From a virus: a stretch of 22,839 nt of DNA. Below the pieces are notes generated by a model that ran no database searches, had not been told where the DNA came from, and worked only from the letters and a program-made list of their open reading frames with translations. The stretch lies in the IMG/VR virus record IMGVR_UViG_3300046009_012391, positions 1-22,839 of that record; one strand, written 5' to 3'. Position numbers and translations under genes: made by a program. Below, piece after piece: positions 10,151 through 22,839 of the stretch. Numbering within the stretch: position 1 is the first letter of the stretch; each line of letters starts with the position of its first letter.

Positions 10151-10879
10151 ATGTCTTTAATCCCGCCGCGCGTCGCGTGCCTTTCCCAAAAAGGCGGCGG
10201 CGGCAAAACTACGCTTGCAACCAACCTGGCCGTAGCGGCGGCCAGGGCAGGCGTGCGAACCCTGTTGCTAGACCTCGACGCGCAGCAATCCAGCGCGCGC
10301 GCATGGGGAACCTGGCGCGCCTCGAGGCGGCCTAAGCCTGGCCTTCCACTGACCATAACGCCGGTTGCGTGGGACGATTTAGAGGCGGCGCTTAAGGGCG
10401 CGGCCAAGGCCAAGCACCAGCTAATAATCCTGGACACGCCAGGCCAGAAGGGGGCGGTTTCTAACTACGCCGCGTCCGTATCGAATATCGTTCTAGTGAC
10501 CGTCCAGCCGTCAATGCTTGACCTGGCGACGATCACGGAAACGCTGGCGCTAAACAACGTCGCCAATAGGCCGGCGTTCGTTTTCTTCAACCGCGTTCCG
10601 GATCGCGCCGCGCTTAAGGAAGCAACGGACGTTGTAAGCGGTCGCGGTATCCGCGTCGCGCCGGTCGCGTTGTCAAACCTCAGAGCCTACCAGGACGCCG
10701 CCGGCGAGGGTCTAGGCGTTCTCGAGCTGGAGCTAGAGCCTGGCGCTACCAAGGCCGCCAGCGCCGAACTAGCGAAGGCGAGGGGCGAGGTAGAGGCGGC
10801 GCTCGCATGGGTGCGCGAACGCCTGGCGGACTATCCCAAAGCCAAAGGCCAGCACGTTGACCAATGGGGGCGGCCATGA
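10151..10879 (+). CDS. parA: ParA-family partition ATPase
   Basis: A 242-residue ATPase of the ParA/MinD family, near the size of short (type Ib) ParA proteins. Residues 14-21 are the deviant Walker A KGGGGKTT with the signature Lys14; residues 38-43 give the A' box L-L-L-D-L-D; residues 91-98 give Walker B LIILDTPG. There is no N-terminal HTH extension, which in type Ia ParA makes the operator contact, so regulation probably depends on the RHH partner encoded next. ParA binds nucleoid DNA in the ATP state and moves plasmid cargo through its centromere-binding partner. ATG 10151 has GGAGGG 4 nt upstream. The next gene overlaps its stop by 4 nt. Confidence 0.93.
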   Translation: MSLIPPRVACLSQKGGGGKTTLATNLAVAAARAGVRTLLLDLDAQQSSARAWGTWRASRRPKPGLPLTITPVAWDDLEAALKGAAKAKHQLIILDTPGQKGAVSNYAASVSNIVLVTVQPSMLDLATITETLALNNVANRPAFVFFNRVPDRAALKEATDVVSGRGIRVAPVALSNLRAYQDAAGEGLGVLELELEPGATKAASAELAKARGEVEAALAWVRERLADYPKAKGQHVDQWGRP

Positions 10880-11160
10880 GCAGAGCAAAGGACAAGGCCG
10901 AACGCCTGGCGCAAATGGACGCCGCGCCGATCGTGCATAACGATCCGCTCGACGCGCTGGCCGCGCGCGGGGAGAACCGCAAGCTAACGGACGTTGTGGA
11001 GTTTAAGGTTCGCCTCTCTTTTGGATTGCTCCAGGAGCTAGACAAGGTGTCCAGCGAAAACCGCTACGGGCGAAATGGCGTCGCGGTTATGTTCCTCGAG
11101 AAAGGTTTGGCCGAATACAAAGCGCGGCGGAAGGCCAAGCTACTAGGGCGGAAGCCATGA
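10876..11160 (+). CDS. Ribbon-helix-helix partition adaptor (ParB/ParG/omega analogue)
   Basis: A 94-residue protein translated from an ATGA overlap with parA. A polar N-terminal tail of about 38 residues is followed by a strand (VEFKVRLS), a helix (FGLLQELDKVSSENR) and a second helix (NGVAVMFLEKGLAEYKARRK), the order of a ribbon-helix-helix dimer. Mobile basic tail plus RHH is the design of ParG and omega, the centromere-binding partners in type Ib partition, whose tails stimulate the ParA ATPase. I infer binding to the 10-bp repeats at 10041-10070 and autoregulation. No classic ParB is visible. The next gene overlaps by 4 nt. Confidence 0.75.
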   Translation: MSRAKDKAERLAQMDAAPIVHNDPLDALAARGENRKLTDVVEFKVRLSFGLLQELDKVSSENRYGRNGVAVMFLEKGLAEYKARRKAKLLGRKP

Positions 11161-11369: not shown

Positions 11370-12197
11370 ATGGCAAAGCGTCCAGCGCCGGCTAGCGCGC
11401 ATTTCGCGGAAGCGTTCGCGCGCGGATGGGGCGTCCCGACTAGCGGGATTGTAGTTTCGTCCGTTGTGTTCCTGGCCGTCCTATTCGGATCGCTTCAATC
11501 GGGCGGCGTCTGGACGCCGCCGCCGCAAGCGTGGGCGATCCTGGTAGCGTTCCTATTCGCCTTCGCGCAATTCGGCGCTATCTCTTGCCTGGCGCGCTGG
11601 AGCAAAGGCCCGCGCCGGTTCCTGGACGGCATGTTCGCGGCGTTCGTTATCTTTGCCGCTATGTCCGCCTTTGGCGTTCACCATGCTTGGGAACAATACC
11701 GAGAGGCCGCCTGGCATCGGGCAGGGGAACAGCTCGAGACTGTCCGGCTAGAGCGGATCGCGGAGCGCGCGCCTTGGCTCACAATCCAGAGGGAGGCGAA
11801 CGCGACGATCGCCAGCGCCAACGCCGCGCTAGTGAGCCTGGCCGGCGAGACGGGTACGGTTACAAGCCGGCTGAATAGCCGTAGTGCCGCACTCGAGCGC
11901 TCCATAACAGCGGCCCAGGCTACGCTAGAGCGCGCCGCCGCAGAGCTGGAGCGGTTGCCGGAGATAGAGCGCCAGGCCGCCGCGCGGCCTTGGGATTACT
12001 TCGACGCGCTCTTTATCCTATTCGCGATCGCTATAGGCGTCCTCGAGTTTGCGATATGGGCGCAACCTCGAGCGGTTACGGCCAAGCCGGTAGTAGCGCC
12101 GCCGCCGCCAGCGCCGATCGCGGAACCGCCGGCGCGCGCGATCGTCCGCCGGACGCGCCAGGCTACCACGCGCCAAGAATATTCCGGCTGGAATTAG
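11370..12197 (+). CDS. Four-span membrane protein with periplasmic or cytoplasmic coiled coil
   Basis: A 275-residue protein with hydrophobic segments at about 26-46, 53-75, 86-108 and 213-233. Between spans 3 and 4 lies a ~100-residue charged helical region (for example GEQLETVRLERIAERAPWLT) that should form a coiled coil. The C-terminus is Pro/Ala-rich with Arg. ATG 11370 follows GGGGGAGG and directly abuts the previous stop. It ends the rightward block; its stop overlaps that of Rz1 on the other strand. The architecture would suit membrane tethering, superinfection exclusion or abortive infection control; none is shown. Placement after parA/RHH is noteworthy. Confidence 0.75.
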   Translation: MAKRPAPASAHFAEAFARGWGVPTSGIVVSSVVFLAVLFGSLQSGGVWTPPPQAWAILVAFLFAFAQFGAISCLARWSKGPRRFLDGMFAAFVIFAAMSAFGVHHAWEQYREAAWHRAGEQLETVRLERIAERAPWLTIQREANATIASANAALVSLAGETGTVTSRLNSRSAALERSITAAQATLERAAAELERLPEIERQAAARPWDYFDALFILFAIAIGVLEFAIWAQPRAVTAKPVVAPPPPAPIAEPPARAIVRRTRQATTRQEYSGWN

Positions 12198-12436
12198 CGT
12201 CCGCGCAATCCGTCGCGCCAGGCGCGGAGCGCTTCCTTATCCGCGTTGCAATCCTGGAGCGCGCGCTCATACGCCGGCAGATCGGCGGCGGGATTGCGCG
12301 TTAGCTCCGGCCCTGGACAATCGCGGAGTAGGGCGTCATTCGGCAGGGCGAACCGCGTTCGCGTCGCGCATCCGCTCAATAGCAGCGTAAGCGCGCAGCA
12401 AAGCAGGATCGGCCAGGCATTGCTCCGAAAACTCAT
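12194..12436 (-). CDS. Rz1: Rz1-like outer-membrane spanin lipoprotein
   Basis: An 80-residue protein with a signal peptide of about 22 residues and a lipobox L-S-G-C, making Cys23 the lipidated N-terminus of a ~58-residue mature protein. The mature part has Pro-rich and Cys-containing segments (ALPNDALLRDCPGPELTRNP; then ALQDCNADKEALRAWRDGL). Its start lies inside the Rz gene in another frame, overlapping by 101 nt, the classic embedded spanin layout. With Rz it should bridge and fuse the two membranes at the last step of lysis. The stop overlaps the stop of the convergent membrane protein gene. Confidence 0.85.
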   Translation of the reverse strand: MSFRSNAWPILLCCALTLLLSGCATRTRFALPNDALLRDCPGPELTRNPAADLPAYERALQDCNADKEALRAWRDGLRGR

Positions 12437-12662
12437 TTGGGTTTACCTCCGCCGTAGCGTCCCTGTAGATCACTTCGACGCGGGAGCGGCCTTGCGCTAG
12501 CGTCGCCATAGCTTCCGCGTTCGCGGTTTCAGATAGGACGCGCGCCTCTAGGTCCGTAATACGGCGCGCCTTGGCCTGGCCGTCCAGCCAAAAGCCAAAC
12601 GCCGCCACGCTGGCCGCAATGGCGGCAAGGGCGGCGGCGCGAAAGGCGATCAGCTTTAGCAT
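12336..12662 (-). CDS. Rz: Rz-like inner-membrane spanin
   Basis: A 108-residue protein with one N-terminal membrane span (about 8-26, AAALAAIAASVAAFGFWLDG) and a periplasmic helical region (A-K-A-R-R-I-T-D-L-E-A-R-V-L-S-E) that should form a coiled coil, then a C-terminal segment with E-Q-C-L-A-D-P-A-L-L-R-A-Y. The out-of-frame embedded Rz1 gene supports the call. Its ATG overlaps the stop of the upstream candidate holin by 1 nt (TAATG), making a small lysis operon. Confidence 0.85.
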   Translation of the reverse strand: MLKLIAFRAAALAAIAASVAAFGFWLDGQAKARRITDLEARVLSETANAEAMATLAQGRSRVEVIYRDATAEVNPNEFSEQCLADPALLRAYAAIERMRDANAVRPAE

Positions 12663-17397: not shown

Positions 17398-17658
17398 CTA
17401 GACTAGGTTCGTATCAAAGCCGCCGCCGCCTCCGCCGCCGCCGCCCGTCCAGGGAGGATCGCCGCCGCCGCCGCTGGCGGCGCTGGCCGCCGAGGCGACG
17501 CCTGGCCGGCGGGCAGGGTCAACGTCGCGGCTGGAGTGTTCCGTAAGCGACTTCTCCGAACGCCGGCCAGGCTTGAATTGCTGGATCGTCGCCGCCGCCA
17601 GGATCACGGTTCGCGCGTCGCGTTGCGCGCGTTTCGGCGGACGCTTGGCCCCGACCAT
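17398..17658 (-). CDS. Small protein with polyglycine tail, unknown
   Basis: An 86-residue protein whose ATG overlaps the stop of the polyvalent protein gene by one nt (TAATG), with GAGGGA 9 nt upstream. It has a basic N-terminus (VGAKRPPKRAQRDARTVIL) and a Gly-rich end with nine Gly in a row encoded by a GCC/GCG microsatellite on the plus strand. Gly-rich small proteins between internal-virion and fibre genes are common in podovirus-like late regions, but I cannot assign a function. Confidence 0.65.
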   Translation of the reverse strand: MVGAKRPPKRAQRDARTVILAAATIQQFKPGRRSEKSLTEHSSRDVDPARRPGVASAASAASGGGGDPPWTGGGGGGGGGFDTNLV

Positions 17659-20600
17659 TAGCGGGTATCCCTCAATAGCCCTTCACTGTAGATCGAACCC
17701 GGATCGCGAACTGGGTTTTCCTGGCCTTCCACAATGTCAATTGCATAGTCGCCAGTAATGTAGAGCTGGCGCGCCGGGAAACCGATTAGATAGCCGGCGG
17801 ACATAAAGGCGTGTTTGACGGTTCCGTCGCCTAGGTCGCCGGTAACAATGTCCTGGCCGACGCCAGTAACAGCCTCACCGATCGCACCCGCCGGCGACAA
17901 TTCATAGCCGTAGGGCGAGATTATCCCGCTCATTACATCGCGAACGCCGGGAACCGTCATAAGCGGGTAGGCGAGCGTTTGCTTCGCCAGGTTCGCCAAT
18001 TCATCCTCCGGCGGTTCGTCGCCTACGCGGCCTTGGAGTATTTCCGCCAGGACAACCGGGAGGAACCAAAGAGCCATCATATTGATAGCGAATTGCGCCG
18101 GCGAGATTTTGCCGCCGGCCAGGCCGGGGATTTGCTCGACGTAGAATTGATTATAGAGCGTGGAGAAATACGTCATAAACTTAGTAAAGAGGCGCATAGC
18201 GCCGCGCTGGCGCATAAGCGCGGACGTGTCCTTTAGTGAGCCGGAGCCTTGCGTCATGCGAACAATACTGTCCGCGTACTGAATAGCCGCGTCCTCTACG
18301 CGCGGGTCCGTTGTGGAGATATTCGCCACACGTCCGGCCATCGCCTCGTTATAGGCCGCTAGCCAGATCGGGATTGATACGCCCATATCCATAGTCGCGG
18401 TCGCCCAAAAGAACGTCCGCCGGATATTCGCCGGGATCGGATCGCCTTTCGCGCGGCCAGCAACCGTAACCATCGCGTCGCGAACGTCGCGATCGTAAGT
18501 ATCAATGCGGTGACGCATCGCGGAGGAACGGCTAACAACGAACTGGAACGCGGCGGCCAGGCGATCCGGACGCCAATAGAGGCGCGAGACTTGACGCCAG
18601 ATCGGCCCCGCGCCGATACGCGGGATAGCGCCCAGGATACCAAGCGGTTGAACGATCGCGGTAGAAACCTTCCAGCCCATCGCCACAACGGAGACGTTGT
18701 TCGAGAGGTTCGTAAGGAGGTTTTCCAGGAAGCCATGCGGCGTTTTAGGTTTAGCCGCAATGTCCTTTAGCCAAGGCTTGATTTGCCGGAACAGATTACG
18801 GCCAACCGCGCCGATAATCGCCGCCTGGATTGCTGGCCTTTCGATCAAACGGCCAGCGTCTAGGATTGCTTCCTCGAACGCTACGAAATGGATTACTTCC
18901 TGGACGTGTTCCTGGAGAACGGACAAGTCCAGGCGGATCAATTGATCGCCCGCGCCGGTGCGCTCGACAAGCATACCCTTCCGCGTTTGCGCGCGGATCA
19001 TGTTTGGGTGCGTTTCTTGCGTGGTTTCTACCTGTTGCCGATCGTGCGTTTTTTCCGTCTTACTCGGATTGTATTTGACCGGATAATATCCGCCCTTCCA
19101 CACTTGGCCCGCCGCCGTAAAGGACTTCGCCTCTACAGCTCGAGGGCGGACGCCGGTTAGGCGTTCATGCAGCGAAAAGGACGGTTCGCGGTATTCCTCG
19201 AGCCAATCCCAAATCCCTTGCACCAGGCGCAAGTCCCGAACGTCCATTCGGTCCAGGATGCCTTGAAGCTGCGTTTCGGTCCAGCCGTAGCCCTCGAGCA
19301 TCACGCGGCGGGAATATTCGTTCCCCGAATTAAGCGCGATCGCGATAACTTGCGCGCGCGTCAACCGCTCCCCGATTTCCGTAAACATGCTCTTTTTCGA
19401 GAACATTTCTTCGCGCTCTTTCGCGGTGAACGCGGCAAATAACTGTTGCGTCCGCTCCGCCGCCAGGCGTTGCATTTCCAATTCAGCCGCTTCCGCTTCC
19501 GCGATCGGGCGGAACAAGTGACGCCATACCGGCCCGTTATCTTTCAGCCCGTCCAGAAGGCGGAACATAAACTCCATTTTGACGTTTTCGGCGTGGAGCC
19601 GTTCGAGGCTAGCCTTGCTTTCCTCTACTTGGTTATCTTCCTCGAGCCGGAGACGGTTTTTCGCGTCAACGTGTTCCAACCCGTTCGCGTGAATAGAAGC
19701 GACAATTTCGCTTTCCACGTCCGCGATGCGCTGGCGCTCCCGCTTGATAAGCAAACCTTGCTTGAGCTGGCCCAGGTGGCGGAGATTGCGGATAGTATCG
19801 TAAAGCCCTTCCGCTTCATCGAACGTAAGCCGGCTAAATGGCCGGCGTTGCGCGCGCTCTATCAGCCGTTCGTCTATCGCCAGCAGATTATCCAGGCCGC
19901 GCTTTTCCATCATGCGGACGTAGCTAACAAGCGCGTCGCGGCGCGCTTCCTCGCGAAGCGAAATGCGGCGTAACTCGAATTGCTCTAGCAGCGCGTCGAT
20001 TTGCGTAAGGTGTCCAGGGTCAATGTGCTGGCGGACGTTGCGCGAATTGAAGCTCTGAAAGAGCCTTTGCATTTTCTCGACTTCCGCGTGAGCGTCGCGC
20101 ATTTCCGCCCACAAATGGAACGCGATCAATTGCGCGTTTTTCTCGAGGCTAGCCGTAGCTAGGTCGCCGGCGCGCATTGCCGCCGCCGCCGCTTTCCCAT
20201 GCTTGCGCTCTTGCCCGAGGACGCGGTTAAACGTGGAGAGCTGGCGGACCGTCATACGCTGGACGCGCTCTTGCGCCAGCTTACGCGCGGCCTTGGCGAT
20301 CGCCTTAGCGTTGCCGGACGTGGCGCGCGAGACAATCTCTAACTCCAGCTCGAGGACGCGGCTATGCTTCGCGCGGTGCGCCGCCTCTTGCGCCGCCGTT
20401 TCCATTGTCCCGTCCTGGAACGGATCGCCGTACAGCTCGCGAACCTTTTTCGCGGCCAGGCGTTCGACTAGCTTACGGCGCGGTCCGAGCGCGGCCAGCA
20501 TACGCAACAGCTCCGCGCCGTCCTTTATGCCAAACGCTTGCGCGATTTCGTCCGGATGCAGCGCGTTAGGGTTCCCGGCTTGCGATTGCGCCTTTACCCA

Positions 20601-22839
20601 ATTTGTAATTTGCTTCCGCAATTCCGCCGCCGGCGCGTTTATATCAATCCCTCGAGCGCCAAACCAATAGCCCGCTTCGCGTTGCGCGTCCGAGGCCCAC
20701 ACGTCCTCTAAGTCCTCGACTTTATAGACGGGTTCGCCGCGCAGATCGTCCGCCAAGGCGTCCAGGAATTGCCGCGTAGTCGGGCGATCGACGCTATCCG
20801 ACGAATAGTAGATACGCGCCACTTGCAGGGGAGGGCGAGCGTCCAGCTTTGCGCCGTCGATTACGTCCGCCGATCGGCTAGCGTCCGTCGCCGGCGTTTG
20901 GCCGATCACCAGGCCGGTTATGTCCGCCTTCTTGATATTGACTAGCTTAAGCGTTCCCGTCGCGATCGCCTCATACACGCCCGTTTGGTGGCGGTGCATC
21001 ATCGCGTAGTAGAGGTATGACGGGTCAATCGCATCCGTAGCGGTGACGCGAACGCCGAAATGCTCCGGGTTATATTCGCGCGTGACGCTTCCAACCGTTT
21101 TGGCCGAGCCGCGACGAACAATATAAAAGTCCGCGTCCGGGTCGCCAATCTTTACCGATACAGCCTGGCCGAGCTTCACAAGCTCACCAGGCGTTGCCGG
21201 CGTTATGCGGATATTCTCTAGCCGCGCGTCCGTCCGAACTTGAACCTCCGGCGCGGTTTGATAGTAGGTAGGTCCGTCGCCGTAATTCCCCTTAGTGGGT
21301 TTCGCGCCGAAATAGCCGGCTTCCCACGCGAACAACGCCGCATCATCTAGGGACATTCCGCTAGAATTATTGATTAGGCCAGGCCGCGCGCGGTGCGATC
21401 CAAGTATAGACAGCACGTCGCCGCCAGGATCGCGGATACCGCCGCGCTGGACCAGGAAGGATGCGAGCCGGCGCGGCGCGTTGCGCTGGACATTTGCCTT
21501 ACGCGCCTCGCGCGCCTGGCGGTAGAGCGCGTCAACGTCCGCCTCCGAGACTTGCCGCAGCTCCGGCGGCAATTCGTCCAGCATCAAGCCGCCATCATCG
21601 TAAGTATCAAGCACAGCTTGGAAATTGATTTCCATAGGCGCAAGGCCCGCCGGCGGCGGAACGAAACCCCAATCCGGATCAACGTCCTCGCCGTTCGACT
21701 TCTTAGGCTTTTTAATATCGCCGCGATATTGCTGATACGCCAGCCAATCGAACGCGCGCCGCGCCGGCGACGTATCAACCTCGCGCATTGCTTCGCGGCG
21801 CGCCTTGCCGAGCTGGCGGTTCCACCATGCCGTCTGTTGCCGAAAGTAGGCGTCCATTGCGACGGCGGTTAGTGAGGCTTCCGCATCGTTCCGCGCATCA
21901 TCTACCTTTTGCCGATAGGATGCGAACTCCGCGTCCGTCAGGCCAAGGGATTGCGCGGTTTGCAGATCAGCGAACAGCGGAACGGTTGCGCCGGACGCTT
22001 CGCGCGCGCGGAGGATTTCCGCCTCAGAAGCAAACAGCCGATCAAAAACGTAAGTTATTTCCGGGTTCAGTTTGTGGTCTAGCTTTATGCGCTCATACAG
22101 GCGCGTAAGCCATTTCTGGAACAGCGCGAACGCGCGCGTAAGCGATATGTTCGGAGCCTGGCCGTTGCGGAGATACGCCTCGAACGTCCGCGCGAACAAT
22201 TCATGGTGCGCGACTTCGAACGCTTCGCCTGGCTCGATTTCCAGCCAGGCCGCCGTCCGGAGCCACAAGTCCTTAGAGGCTTCCGTTGCATTGGCGCGCG
22301 TGCCGAACTCGCGGATAATCTCGAGAAAGATATGGCCGCTTTCATGCAGGAACGTAGAGAAGTTAGCCGCCTCAGTAAGCCGGACGGTTGCGCTAACTAT
22401 GCGGCCATTGACTTCCGCGAACTCCGTTGCGCCGCGTACAATTTCGCCGCCTTGTTCGTCAACGCCCGTAGCTTGATAGGTCCGAATAGGCATCGCGCCT
22501 TGTTCGTCCGGGAACACAACGTAGGCGGCCAGGTCCGACGCTTCCGCCGTTTCCATTGGCGACGTATTGACATAGCGCAGACCTACATAGCCTTGAGCGC
22601 GCCAGAGCTTGCGCGCTTCGCGAACCATGCGCGCGCGGTCCTCGTTATTGTATGGACGCCCGCCGTAATTCTGTAGGAACTCCATAAGGTCATAGGCGCG
22701 GCCATGCCCTTCGTGCGGCATAGCGACGGTTTCGCCGCGCGCCAACGCCTCCGCCATTGCCGCCGCCGCCTCCGGCTCGACGTTGCGCGCTTGGATTAGG
22801 TAGTCGCGCAGCATGGCGGGATAGGCTGAAGAGACCAGG
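17658..22839 (-). CDS. Large polyvalent (injected/internal virion-type) protein, N-terminus outside the window
   Basis: The frame is open to the right edge; the first Met in the window (22814) has no ribosome-binding site, so the gene is 5'-partial with at least 1726 residues. Numbering from that Met: residues 40-110 end an ADP-ribosyltransferase-like polyvalent domain (GYVGLRYVNTSPMETAEASD). Residues 150-215 contain HESGH (157-161) and a downstream E-L-F-A-R-T-F-E-A-Y-L-R-N-G segment, a zincin-type metallopeptidase. Residues 450-505 hold LVQRGGIRDPGGDVLSILGS...AWEAGYF. Residues 535-640 resemble a type I restriction specificity TRD. Residues 860-1130 are coiled coil. From about 1300 on lies an LPD38-like domain (YADSIVRMTQGSGSLKDTSA; LFTKFMTYFSTLYNQF). 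Such polyvalent proteins are thought to be packaged and injected with the genome. Confidence 0.85.
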   Translation of the reverse strand, partial: LVSSAYPAMLRDYLIQARNVEPEAAAAMAEALARGETVAMPHEGHGRAYDLMEFLQNYGGRPYNNEDRARMVREARKLWRAQGYVGLRYVNTSPMETAEASDLAAYVVFPDEQGAMPIRTYQATGVDEQGGEIVRGATEFAEVNGRIVSATVRLTEAANFSTFLHESGHIFLEIIREFGTRANATEASKDLWLRTAAWLEIEPGEAFEVAHHELFARTFEAYLRNGQAPNISLTRAFALFQKWLTRLYERIKLDHKLNPEITYVFDRLFASEAEILRAREASGATVPLFADLQTAQSLGLTDAEFASYRQKVDDARNDAEASLTAVAMDAYFRQQTAWWNRQLGKARREAMREVDTSPARRAFDWLAYQQYRGDIKKPKKSNGEDVDPDWGFVPPPAGLAPMEINFQAVLDTYDDGGLMLDELPPELRQVSEADVDALYRQAREARKANVQRNAPRRLASFLVQRGGIRDPGGDVLSILGSHRARPGLINNSSGMSLDDAALFAWEAGYFGAKPTKGNYGDGPTYYQTAPEVQVRTDARLENIRITPATPGELVKLGQAVSVKIGDPDADFYIVRRGSAKTVGSVTREYNPEHFGVRVTATDAIDPSYLYYAMMHRHQTGVYEAIATGTLKLVNIKKADITGLVIGQTPATDASRSADVIDGAKLDARPPLQVARIYYSSDSVDRPTTRQFLDALADDLRGEPVYKVEDLEDVWASDAQREAGYWFGARGIDINAPAAELRKQITNWVKAQSQAGNPNALHPDEIAQAFGIKDGAELLRMLAALGPRRKLVERLAAKKVRELYGDPFQDGTMETAAQEAAHRAKHSRVLELELEIVSRATSGNAKAIAKAARKLAQERVQRMTVRQLSTFNRVLGQERKHGKAAAAAMRAGDLATASLEKNAQLIAFHLWAEMRDAHAEVEKMQRLFQSFNSRNVRQHIDPGHLTQIDALLEQFELRRISLREEARRDALVSYVRMMEKRGLDNLLAIDERLIERAQRRPFSRLTFDEAEGLYDTIRNLRHLGQLKQGLLIKRERQRIADVESEIVASIHANGLEHVDAKNRLRLEEDNQVEESKASLERLHAENVKMEFMFRLLDGLKDNGPVWRHLFRPIAEAEAAELEMQRLAAERTQQLFAAFTAKEREEMFSKKSMFTEIGERLTRAQVIAIALNSGNEYSRRVMLEGYGWTETQLQGILDRMDVRDLRLVQGIWDWLEEYREPSFSLHERLTGVRPRAVEAKSFTAAGQVWKGGYYPVKYNPSKTEKTHDRQQVETTQETHPNMIRAQTRKGMLVERTGAGDQLIRLDLSVLQEHVQEVIHFVAFEEAILDAGRLIERPAIQAAIIGAVGRNLFRQIKPWLKDIAAKPKTPHGFLENLLTNLSNNVSVVAMGWKVSTAIVQPLGILGAIPRIGAGPIWRQVSRLYWRPDRLAAAFQFVVSRSSAMRHRIDTYDRDVRDAMVTVAGRAKGDPIPANIRRTFFWATATMDMGVSIPIWLAAYNEAMAGRVANISTTDPRVEDAAIQYADSIVRMTQGSGSLKDTSALMRQRGAMRLFTKFMTYFSTLYNQFYVEQIPGLAGGKISPAQFAINMMALWFLPVVLAEILQGRVGDEPPEDELANLAKQTLAYPLMTVPGVRDVMSGIISPYGYELSPAGAIGEAVTGVGQDIVTGDLGDGTVKHAFMSAGYLIGFPARQLYITGDYAIDIVEGQENPVRDPGSIYSEGLLRDTR

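Follow-up and report, generated by a model that had tools for sequence, protein, structure and literature searches.

Most of the antirestriction proteins known from phages and plasmids are DNA mimics, enzyme binders or proteins that act on incoming DNA. Here, we analyzed a 22,839-base IMG/VR virus record (IMGVR_UViG_3300046009_012391, a fragment, hereafter the window), in which the minus strand encodes a giant protein with a segment that, judged by sequence profiles and a predicted structure, is a miniaturised target recognition domain (TRD) of the HsdS family of type I specificity (S) subunits, carried as a swappable cassette. Single-TRD S subunits, such as truncated EcoR124I and EcoDXXI S, NgoAV S, and those of the 'Type 1 1/2' methylases, resemble it in that one TRD on a separate chain is functional, but the truncated proteins are reported to keep a full TRD and a dimerisation helix and to have a cognate HsdM (PMC3874165). 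The Lactococcus orphan hsdS genes are likewise found on plasmids, most of them without their own hsdM, but are described as mostly full-length, neither miniature nor split, and are said to broaden host specificity (PMC6098607). The T4 internal proteins are small, packaged and protease-processed; a leader of about 10 residues is described as packaging them and the head protease as releasing them (PMC7697877), and IPI* as being injected and inhibiting a restriction enzyme (PMC3012670). Their fold is different, however, and comparable leaders were seen only in T4-like carriers of the module and not in the window protein. Finally, polyvalent proteins (Iyer et al. 2017) are giant phage and plasmid mosaics with a zincin-like motif, ART-PolyVal and LPD domains, as are the window protein and its relatives taken together. 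A word search of the main text of PMC5512222 returned no HsdS, specificity subunit, target recognition or TRD, and a literature search that covered neither subscription papers nor preprints found no account of a mini-TRD in phages or on plasmids, which does not prove novelty.

The first-pass annotation had proposed that residues of about 535–640 of the giant protein read like the end of a type I S-subunit TRD. The strings that it quoted (ADFYIVRRGS, DPSYLYYAMMHRHQ and GTLKLVNIKKADITGLVI) were all located in the minus-strand giant open reading frame (ORF); the domain proper extends from residue 545 to 641 (about 97 residues), and IRITP, near residue 535, falls just outside it. To compare this module with HsdS, 31 TRDs were taken from PF01420 matches in Pseudomonadota genomes. 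With a family profile of 36 sequences, hhalign gave a score of 40.9 (probability 91.7, E-value 7.9e-7), against 19.8 for the best of 300 column shuffles and 10.5 for the reversed profile. With 60 non-redundant members, the score rose to 43.8 (probability 93.5), above all of 200 column shuffles (best 20.0). Eight families of neighbouring genes served as a real-protein null; seven of them scored at most 19.5. The exception, at 37.8, was gene B, the plasmid partner described below, which matched the HsdS helix that follows the TRD. The probability was 80.8 with a narrower TRD profile of 15 sequences and otherwise ranged from 91.7 to 94. The PADLOC matches were all to Specificity_I (5/5 for the window, 3/3 for the relative L003), with weak E-values (0.006–0.043).

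The final AlphaFold2 model of the module, built from 60 rows filtered at 90% identity, was confident (predicted local distance difference test score, pLDDT, 89.2; predicted template modelling score 0.81). The top four Foldseek matches in the PDB, headed by 1YDX (E-value 1.2e-3, probability 1.00), were either S subunits or methylases that contain a TRD, and the 24 entries listed by VIA-align were S subunits, TRD-bearing adenine methylases or Esub1, the best being 1YF2 (Z 10.4, root-mean-square deviation 2.4, 91 of 97 residues). Both the structural match and the global profile alignment with the second TRD of TTE-HsdS cover the same stretch of that protein, residues 216–350. The resemblance could still be due to chance or to a modelling artefact, and several observations go in that direction: PF01420 of Pfam gave no match at an E-value of 10 or below in 20 members, in the window segment or in L003; most of the VIA-align Z-scores were below 8, a level that common arrangements reach as well; and a first AlphaFold model from 20 rows, mostly near-copies and thus a poor alignment, reached a pLDDT of only 45.9 and was set aside. 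We consider this explanation extremely improbable, since the shuffles, the reversed profile and the real-protein null all scored below the real comparison, the later model is confident with listed structural matches that are nearly all TRDs, and the two kinds of alignment coincide. The fold is thus very probably that of a type I S-subunit TRD, and no clear match to another polyvalent-associated domain appeared in its place. Several searches were uninformative: NCBIfam contained no match for the module, phmmer and hmmsearch of PDB sequences returned nothing useful, and the weak Pfam names DUF6943, cNMP_binding and DUF2774, all far below their cut-offs, were rejected. The unnamed family phrog_2668 weakly matched 32 of the 60 members (best E-value 7.1e-5).

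The assignment proposed in the first-pass annotation therefore stands for the fold but not for a whole TRD. Residues 1–12 of the module correspond to the first TRD strand and helix, about 41 residues of the TRD are then absent (about 228–268 in TTE-HsdS), and the remainder aligns to the TRD end. Five DNA-contact loops are predicted for the second TRD of TTE-HsdS, at S230-S233, G248-K249, R280-A281, R297-G298 and T332-N334 (PMC3047542). The first two are absent from the module, and the other three are kept (RRGS, the PEHIG region and GTLxLVN, respectively), so that the module is not a complete TRD with all predicted contact loops. The module positions A17, F19, R23 and G25 are 95–100% conserved among the 60 members, in which the glycine of the YNPEHFGVRV segment (PEHIGIKV in the family) is invariant. 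A TRD helix-loop is proposed to form the interface with HsdM (PMC3047542); the YLYYAMM helix, its putative counterpart, is kept and is among the most conserved parts of the module. The order of elements is that of an HsdS TRD (Methylase_S), and the module ends, at GTLKLVNIKKADITGLVI, where HsdS continues into the LPPLxEQ helix (LPPLEEQ in TTE-HsdS). Unlike HsdS, it occurs as one module per ORF, with no multi-domain ORF among 207; two TRDs with conserved-region helices in one chain were not found, a helix-like region being present only in the separate plasmid gene B. It also differs in falling below Pfam detection, in being far more conserved between carriers, in the absence of a conserved-region helix from the phage forms, and in that hsdM (PF02384) was found in 0/1 window record, which is a fragment. 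Taken together, the profiles and the model indicate a module that is kin to HsdS TRDs yet is not an HsdS subunit. The described protein closest in size is Esub1 (PDB 8VSQ and 8VSR), a short TRD-like protein (VIA-align Z 7.2–7.5) that the TRD profile also matches (E-value 4.5e-12) but that is about twice as long (198–206 residues) and is known here from its PDB titles alone, 'Crystal structure of Esub1' and 'Co-crystal structure of Prx with Esub1'. From the title and a literature listing, we take this Prx to be the Streptococcus phage protein paratox.

Masking of sites on incoming DNA, or mimicry of an S subunit, had been put forward as possible roles, and both are plausible and fit the distribution. 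We favour a decoy of the S subunit that would act on HsdM or on enzyme assembly, with a probability of roughly 0.4. The phage protein would be delivered together with the DNA, the mini-TRD would dock through its kept helix-loop, thought to be the side of HsdS that faces HsdM, and would occupy free or assembling HsdM or compete with the host S subunit, thereby lowering type I restriction while the entering DNA is unprotected. On plasmids, the same task would be shared by two proteins, the mini-TRD (gene A) and a partner (gene B) supplying an HsdS-like conserved-region helix. This explanation is preferred because the DNA-reading surface is partly gone, the HsdM-facing helix is kept, and, according to a review of type I enzymes, neither S nor M of EcoKI binds DNA alone (PMC3874165). 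The mean pairwise identity is 0.52 in the module family versus 0.19 among the sampled TRDs, a contrast that is only suggestive, as the TRD sample consists of diverse paralogues. Such high conservation may reflect a single, unchanging partner instead of a variety of DNA sites, and together with the loss of two of the five DNA loops, it favours a protein target. All three kinds of carrier, i.e., plasmids, T4-like contigs and phages with polyvalent proteins, bring DNA into new cells; this, with the conservation, suggests an antirestriction use.

Several observations weigh against the decoy, besides the composition of the TRD sample. The phage forms do not contain the conserved-region helices, which are a proposed HsdM contact, making docking to HsdM uncertain. 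Delivery of the window protein with phage DNA is something that we infer by analogy, its presence in the virion being deduced from relatives (the BPP-1 record note reads 'part of the structural protein cassette'). On pO157_Sal, the one plasmid examined, gene A lies on the tra/relaxase side, apparently outside the leading region that enters first. Moreover, the three kept contact loops and the mildly basic character of the module (median isoelectric point 8.8) also fit DNA binding. They bear on the main rival to the decoy, a DNA shield or tether, in which the mini-TRD would bind incoming DNA, either loosely or by recognising one fixed short motif, so as to cover sites or anchor the other domains of the protein. 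TRDs are DNA-recognition domains, the kept loops contain very conserved residues, and DarA/DarB and ArdC are described as binding transferred DNA (PMC5512222). We nevertheless regard shielding as unlikely: two contact loops are absent, EcoKI S reportedly does not bind DNA by itself, and recognition of one short, fixed sequence would leave the DNA exposed to many host specificities.

HsdS is also the targeting subunit of a methylase, and the module might direct an adenine methylase, of the host or of the phage, to DNA on its entry, so that this DNA is marked as self. The single-TRD S subunits of the 'Type 1 1/2' methylases (PMC3874165) and the methylases reported in polyvalent proteins of other phages (PMC5512222) provide precedents for such a role. 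It is highly improbable here, as the fragmentary window record contains no N6-methylase of PF02384 and a fixed targeting domain without two contact loops would be a poor targeter.

Gene A, encoding a hypothetical protein of about 95 residues that was unnamed in the rows examined, was found at an E-value of 1 or below in 269 of 72,556 plasmid records, and 267 of the 269 matches cover at least 80% of the query. The plasmids include a KPC-3 plasmid and a Pseudomonas aeruginosa plasmid with acrF3 nearby. In the Gammaproteobacterial examples examined, the unnamed gene B (about 136–149 residues) follows A directly or after one gene. More generally, it was detected within 1 kb downstream at 42 of the 69 loci that have the module at the end of an ORF and enough sequence beyond it, and downstream of none of 32 fused modules. 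Gene B is present on 261 plasmids, with genus counts near-equal to those of gene A. Its N-terminus matches the post-TRD HsdS helix (probability 81.9, score 39.6, against 23.4 for the best of 200 shuffles), and the copy at L047 carries LPPLEEQ near its start. For these two reasons, the plasmid A/B cassette reads, in its sequence, as a half-HsdS cut at the border between TRD and helix, with an extra C-terminal domain. That C-terminal half is well conserved, with a 'KLAxLLGLSSDRRIRxYKxG' stretch, and resembles a helix-turn-helix by eye; two copies of gene B that were tested gave no Pfam match. Copies were located at L040:8325-8747, L041:2624-3034, L046:771-1181, L047:4324-4770, L049:4964-5380, L050:5355-5804 and L051:5322-5732.

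The A/B pairs adjoin varied plasmid genes (rep, toxin-antitoxin, SOS, acr), with no fixed defence partner. Like the conserved C-terminal stretch of B, this could point to a domain repurposed outside restriction, for instance for protein binding or transcription control, with A and B forming a regulator pair. Such a role is unlikely, however, since the fused phage forms occur without B, so that the module works alone, and a function at entry would better explain why it is spread among proteins of the injected type. Returning to the S-subunit decoy, it is possible, though doubtful, that it extends to a widespread and unnamed class of counter-defence, in which a mimic of a restriction subunit would be injected by giant and polyvalent-protein phages, split into a half-HsdS on plasmids (KPC included), and would act by capturing HsdM. 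If true, a conserved part of the recognition subunit of the enzyme itself, common to jumbo phages, polyvalent proteins and the 269 plasmid records, including that of the KPC-3 plasmid, would represent a different antirestriction strategy. It would also give a testable function to a hypothetical protein overlooked by annotation, and the modular logic of HsdS, a TRD plus a helix split into two genes, becomes testable outside restriction enzymes.

Relatives were collected by pattern scans confirmed by tblastn. The first scan returned three of them (43–52% identity): two are stand-alone proteins of about 95 residues, and in the third, the module is internal to a polyvalent protein that also has ART-PolyVal. 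Broader scans of viral contigs yielded 34, 126 and 87 confirmed loci, in overlapping sets, of which 80 were kept from each of the last two. After merging the viral loci, the plasmid loci and the window, 108 unique module cores were obtained. Many IMG/VR loci with gene B (L002, L003 and much of L082-L113) look plasmid-like and were not counted as phages. The module is present, stand-alone or fused, in many uncultivated viral contigs, including T4-like giants and giant freshwater phages, and in polyvalent proteins with ART-PolyVal and LPD22. In a tree of 78 modules, which has too few columns for dating transfers, the window module stands beside that of L158 (56% identical, support 88/93, not starred), a polyvalent ART protein also seen as L033. 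Four representative queries did not find the module in 50,697 GenBank phage records, apart from one partial match (E-value 0.7); the window segment matched these phages only in its flanks or with E-values of 0.7 and 9, the latter, a 'tail protein' of Vibrio phage pYD21-A, being rejected. On chromosomes, the module was detected in one of 398 sampled Pseudomonadota genomes, which was the seed itself, and one of 396 pattern-matching stretches in a genome-contig collection was confirmed.

Among 14 carrier records searched, each of the four larger than 300 kb passed the cut-off for T4-type genes of the prohead protease and of the capsid, and the 10 others, all shorter, passed it for neither. In T4-like giant phages, the module is preceded by leaders such as MRFTEIISE and lies within gene runs that share similar starts; these leaders resemble capsid-targeting sequences. 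In relatives, a motif-based test for such leaders and for hydrophobic-x-E sites was positive upstream of the module in 30 rows and downstream in 26, out of 42 that a script called fused; the rows were counted by eye and include a few short plasmid ORFs and fragments. The window module has neither an N-terminal capsid-targeting-like leader nor adjoining hydrophobic-x-E sites.

Some of these viral loci showed further features. The flanks of L116 and L138 contain runs of adjacent genes with common N-terminal starts (MKIIITESQ-like at L116, MKTFFEYL- or MNFKQWL-like at L138), which are candidates for families of internal proteins that uncultivated phages package and process. The module protein at L013:5659-6981 has a weak match to the T4 RegB endoribonuclease ahead of the module (E-value 0.0085, below the cut-off) and DUF6321 after it, forming a string of small domains with hydrophobic-x-E sites between them. 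At L037:6001-6507, a module copy is open only if TGA encodes tryptophan. It contains three in-frame TGA codons, one at a nearly invariant tryptophan column and another at a column with tryptophan in many members; the adjacent ORF of 452 residues has nine reassigned codons under the code used, and one of 834 residues at the same locus needs none. This sequence possibly comes from a phage with a recoded region.

The features of the window protein are listed in Table 1. Counted from the first ATG (17658-22814, minus strand), it has 1718 residues, and it may be longer, as the reading frame is open to the contig end. Its family, phrog_9880, comprises the giant protein found in BPP-1-like podoviruses and their relatives, with 40 phage records, all below 60% identity. 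Residues of about 121–317 and 750–1700 are common to the window protein and its homologues in BPP-1, SR18, CP2 and Carin1, except that sharing with CP2 ends at 1540.

Table 1. Positions in the window of the giant protein, its segments and the elements of the mini-TRD module.
Feature	Position	Strand	Basis or remark
Giant multidomain 'polyvalent'-type protein ORF	17658..22838	(-)	phrog_9880, E-value 2.9e-253
Conserved segment, residues 121-317	21864..22454	(-)	Aligns in 4/4 homologues; zincin-like HExxH
HESGH (HExxH motif), residues 157-161	22332-22346	(-)	Alignment
Variable insert region, residues ~420-749	20568..21557	(-)	Houses the mini-TRD module
Second mobile segment, residues 450-539	21198..21467	(-)	37% identity to Xanthomonas phage CP2 ORF24 residues 679-764
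Mini-TRD module, residues 545-641	20892..21182	(-)	Family profile, AlphaFold2 model, structural match
VKLGQAVSVKI, HsdS-like opening strand/helix ('RLGEVCDI')	21147..21179	(-)	Global hhalign against the second TRD of TTE-HsdS
ADFYIVRRGS, residues 561-570	21105..21134	(-)	hhalign alignment; covers predicted DNA-contact loop R280-A281 of TTE-HsdS
YNPEHFGVRV (family PEHIGIKV)	21045..21074	(-)	hhalign alignment; covers predicted DNA-contact loop R297-G298
DPSYLYYAMMHRHQ helix, residues 597-610	20985..21026	(-)	Model helix 54-66; TRD helix-loop type proposed as HsdM interface
GTLKLVNIKKADITGLVI, residues 620-637	20904..20957	(-)	GT loop (predicted contact loop T332-N334), final short TRD helix and strand
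Conserved C-terminal part, residues 750-1702	17709..20567	(-)	Common to BPP-1 Bbp10, SR18, CP2 and Carin1 proteins

The mini-TRD module was unmatched in all four aligned homologues, and the CP2 protein has, at a different place in its chain, a match to another part of the insert. In CP2 ORF24, the stretch matching residues 450–539 precedes the conserved core and appears as a second shuffled domain. The HExxH motif aligned in all five proteins, the window protein included, in keeping with the zincin-like peptidases that have been described in polyvalent proteins (PMC5512222). With this motif, its exchangeable domains and its size as a giant mosaic, the window protein has the features of a polyvalent protein; a Pfam scan of it gave no family over the cut-off, and LPD and ART-PolyVal domains are present in the relatives L004 and L033.

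Elsewhere in the window, two overlapping small ORFs (12194-12662, minus strand) resemble by eye an Rz/Rz1 spanin arrangement, a lipoprotein-like ORF overlapping one with a single N-terminal hydrophobic stretch; the larger of the two has no family match. A ParA-like partition ATPase (phrog_164, E-value 1.9e-30) is encoded at 10151-11160 on the plus strand, followed by an ORF of 98 residues without a family match, and the window phage may thus maintain a plasmid-like state.

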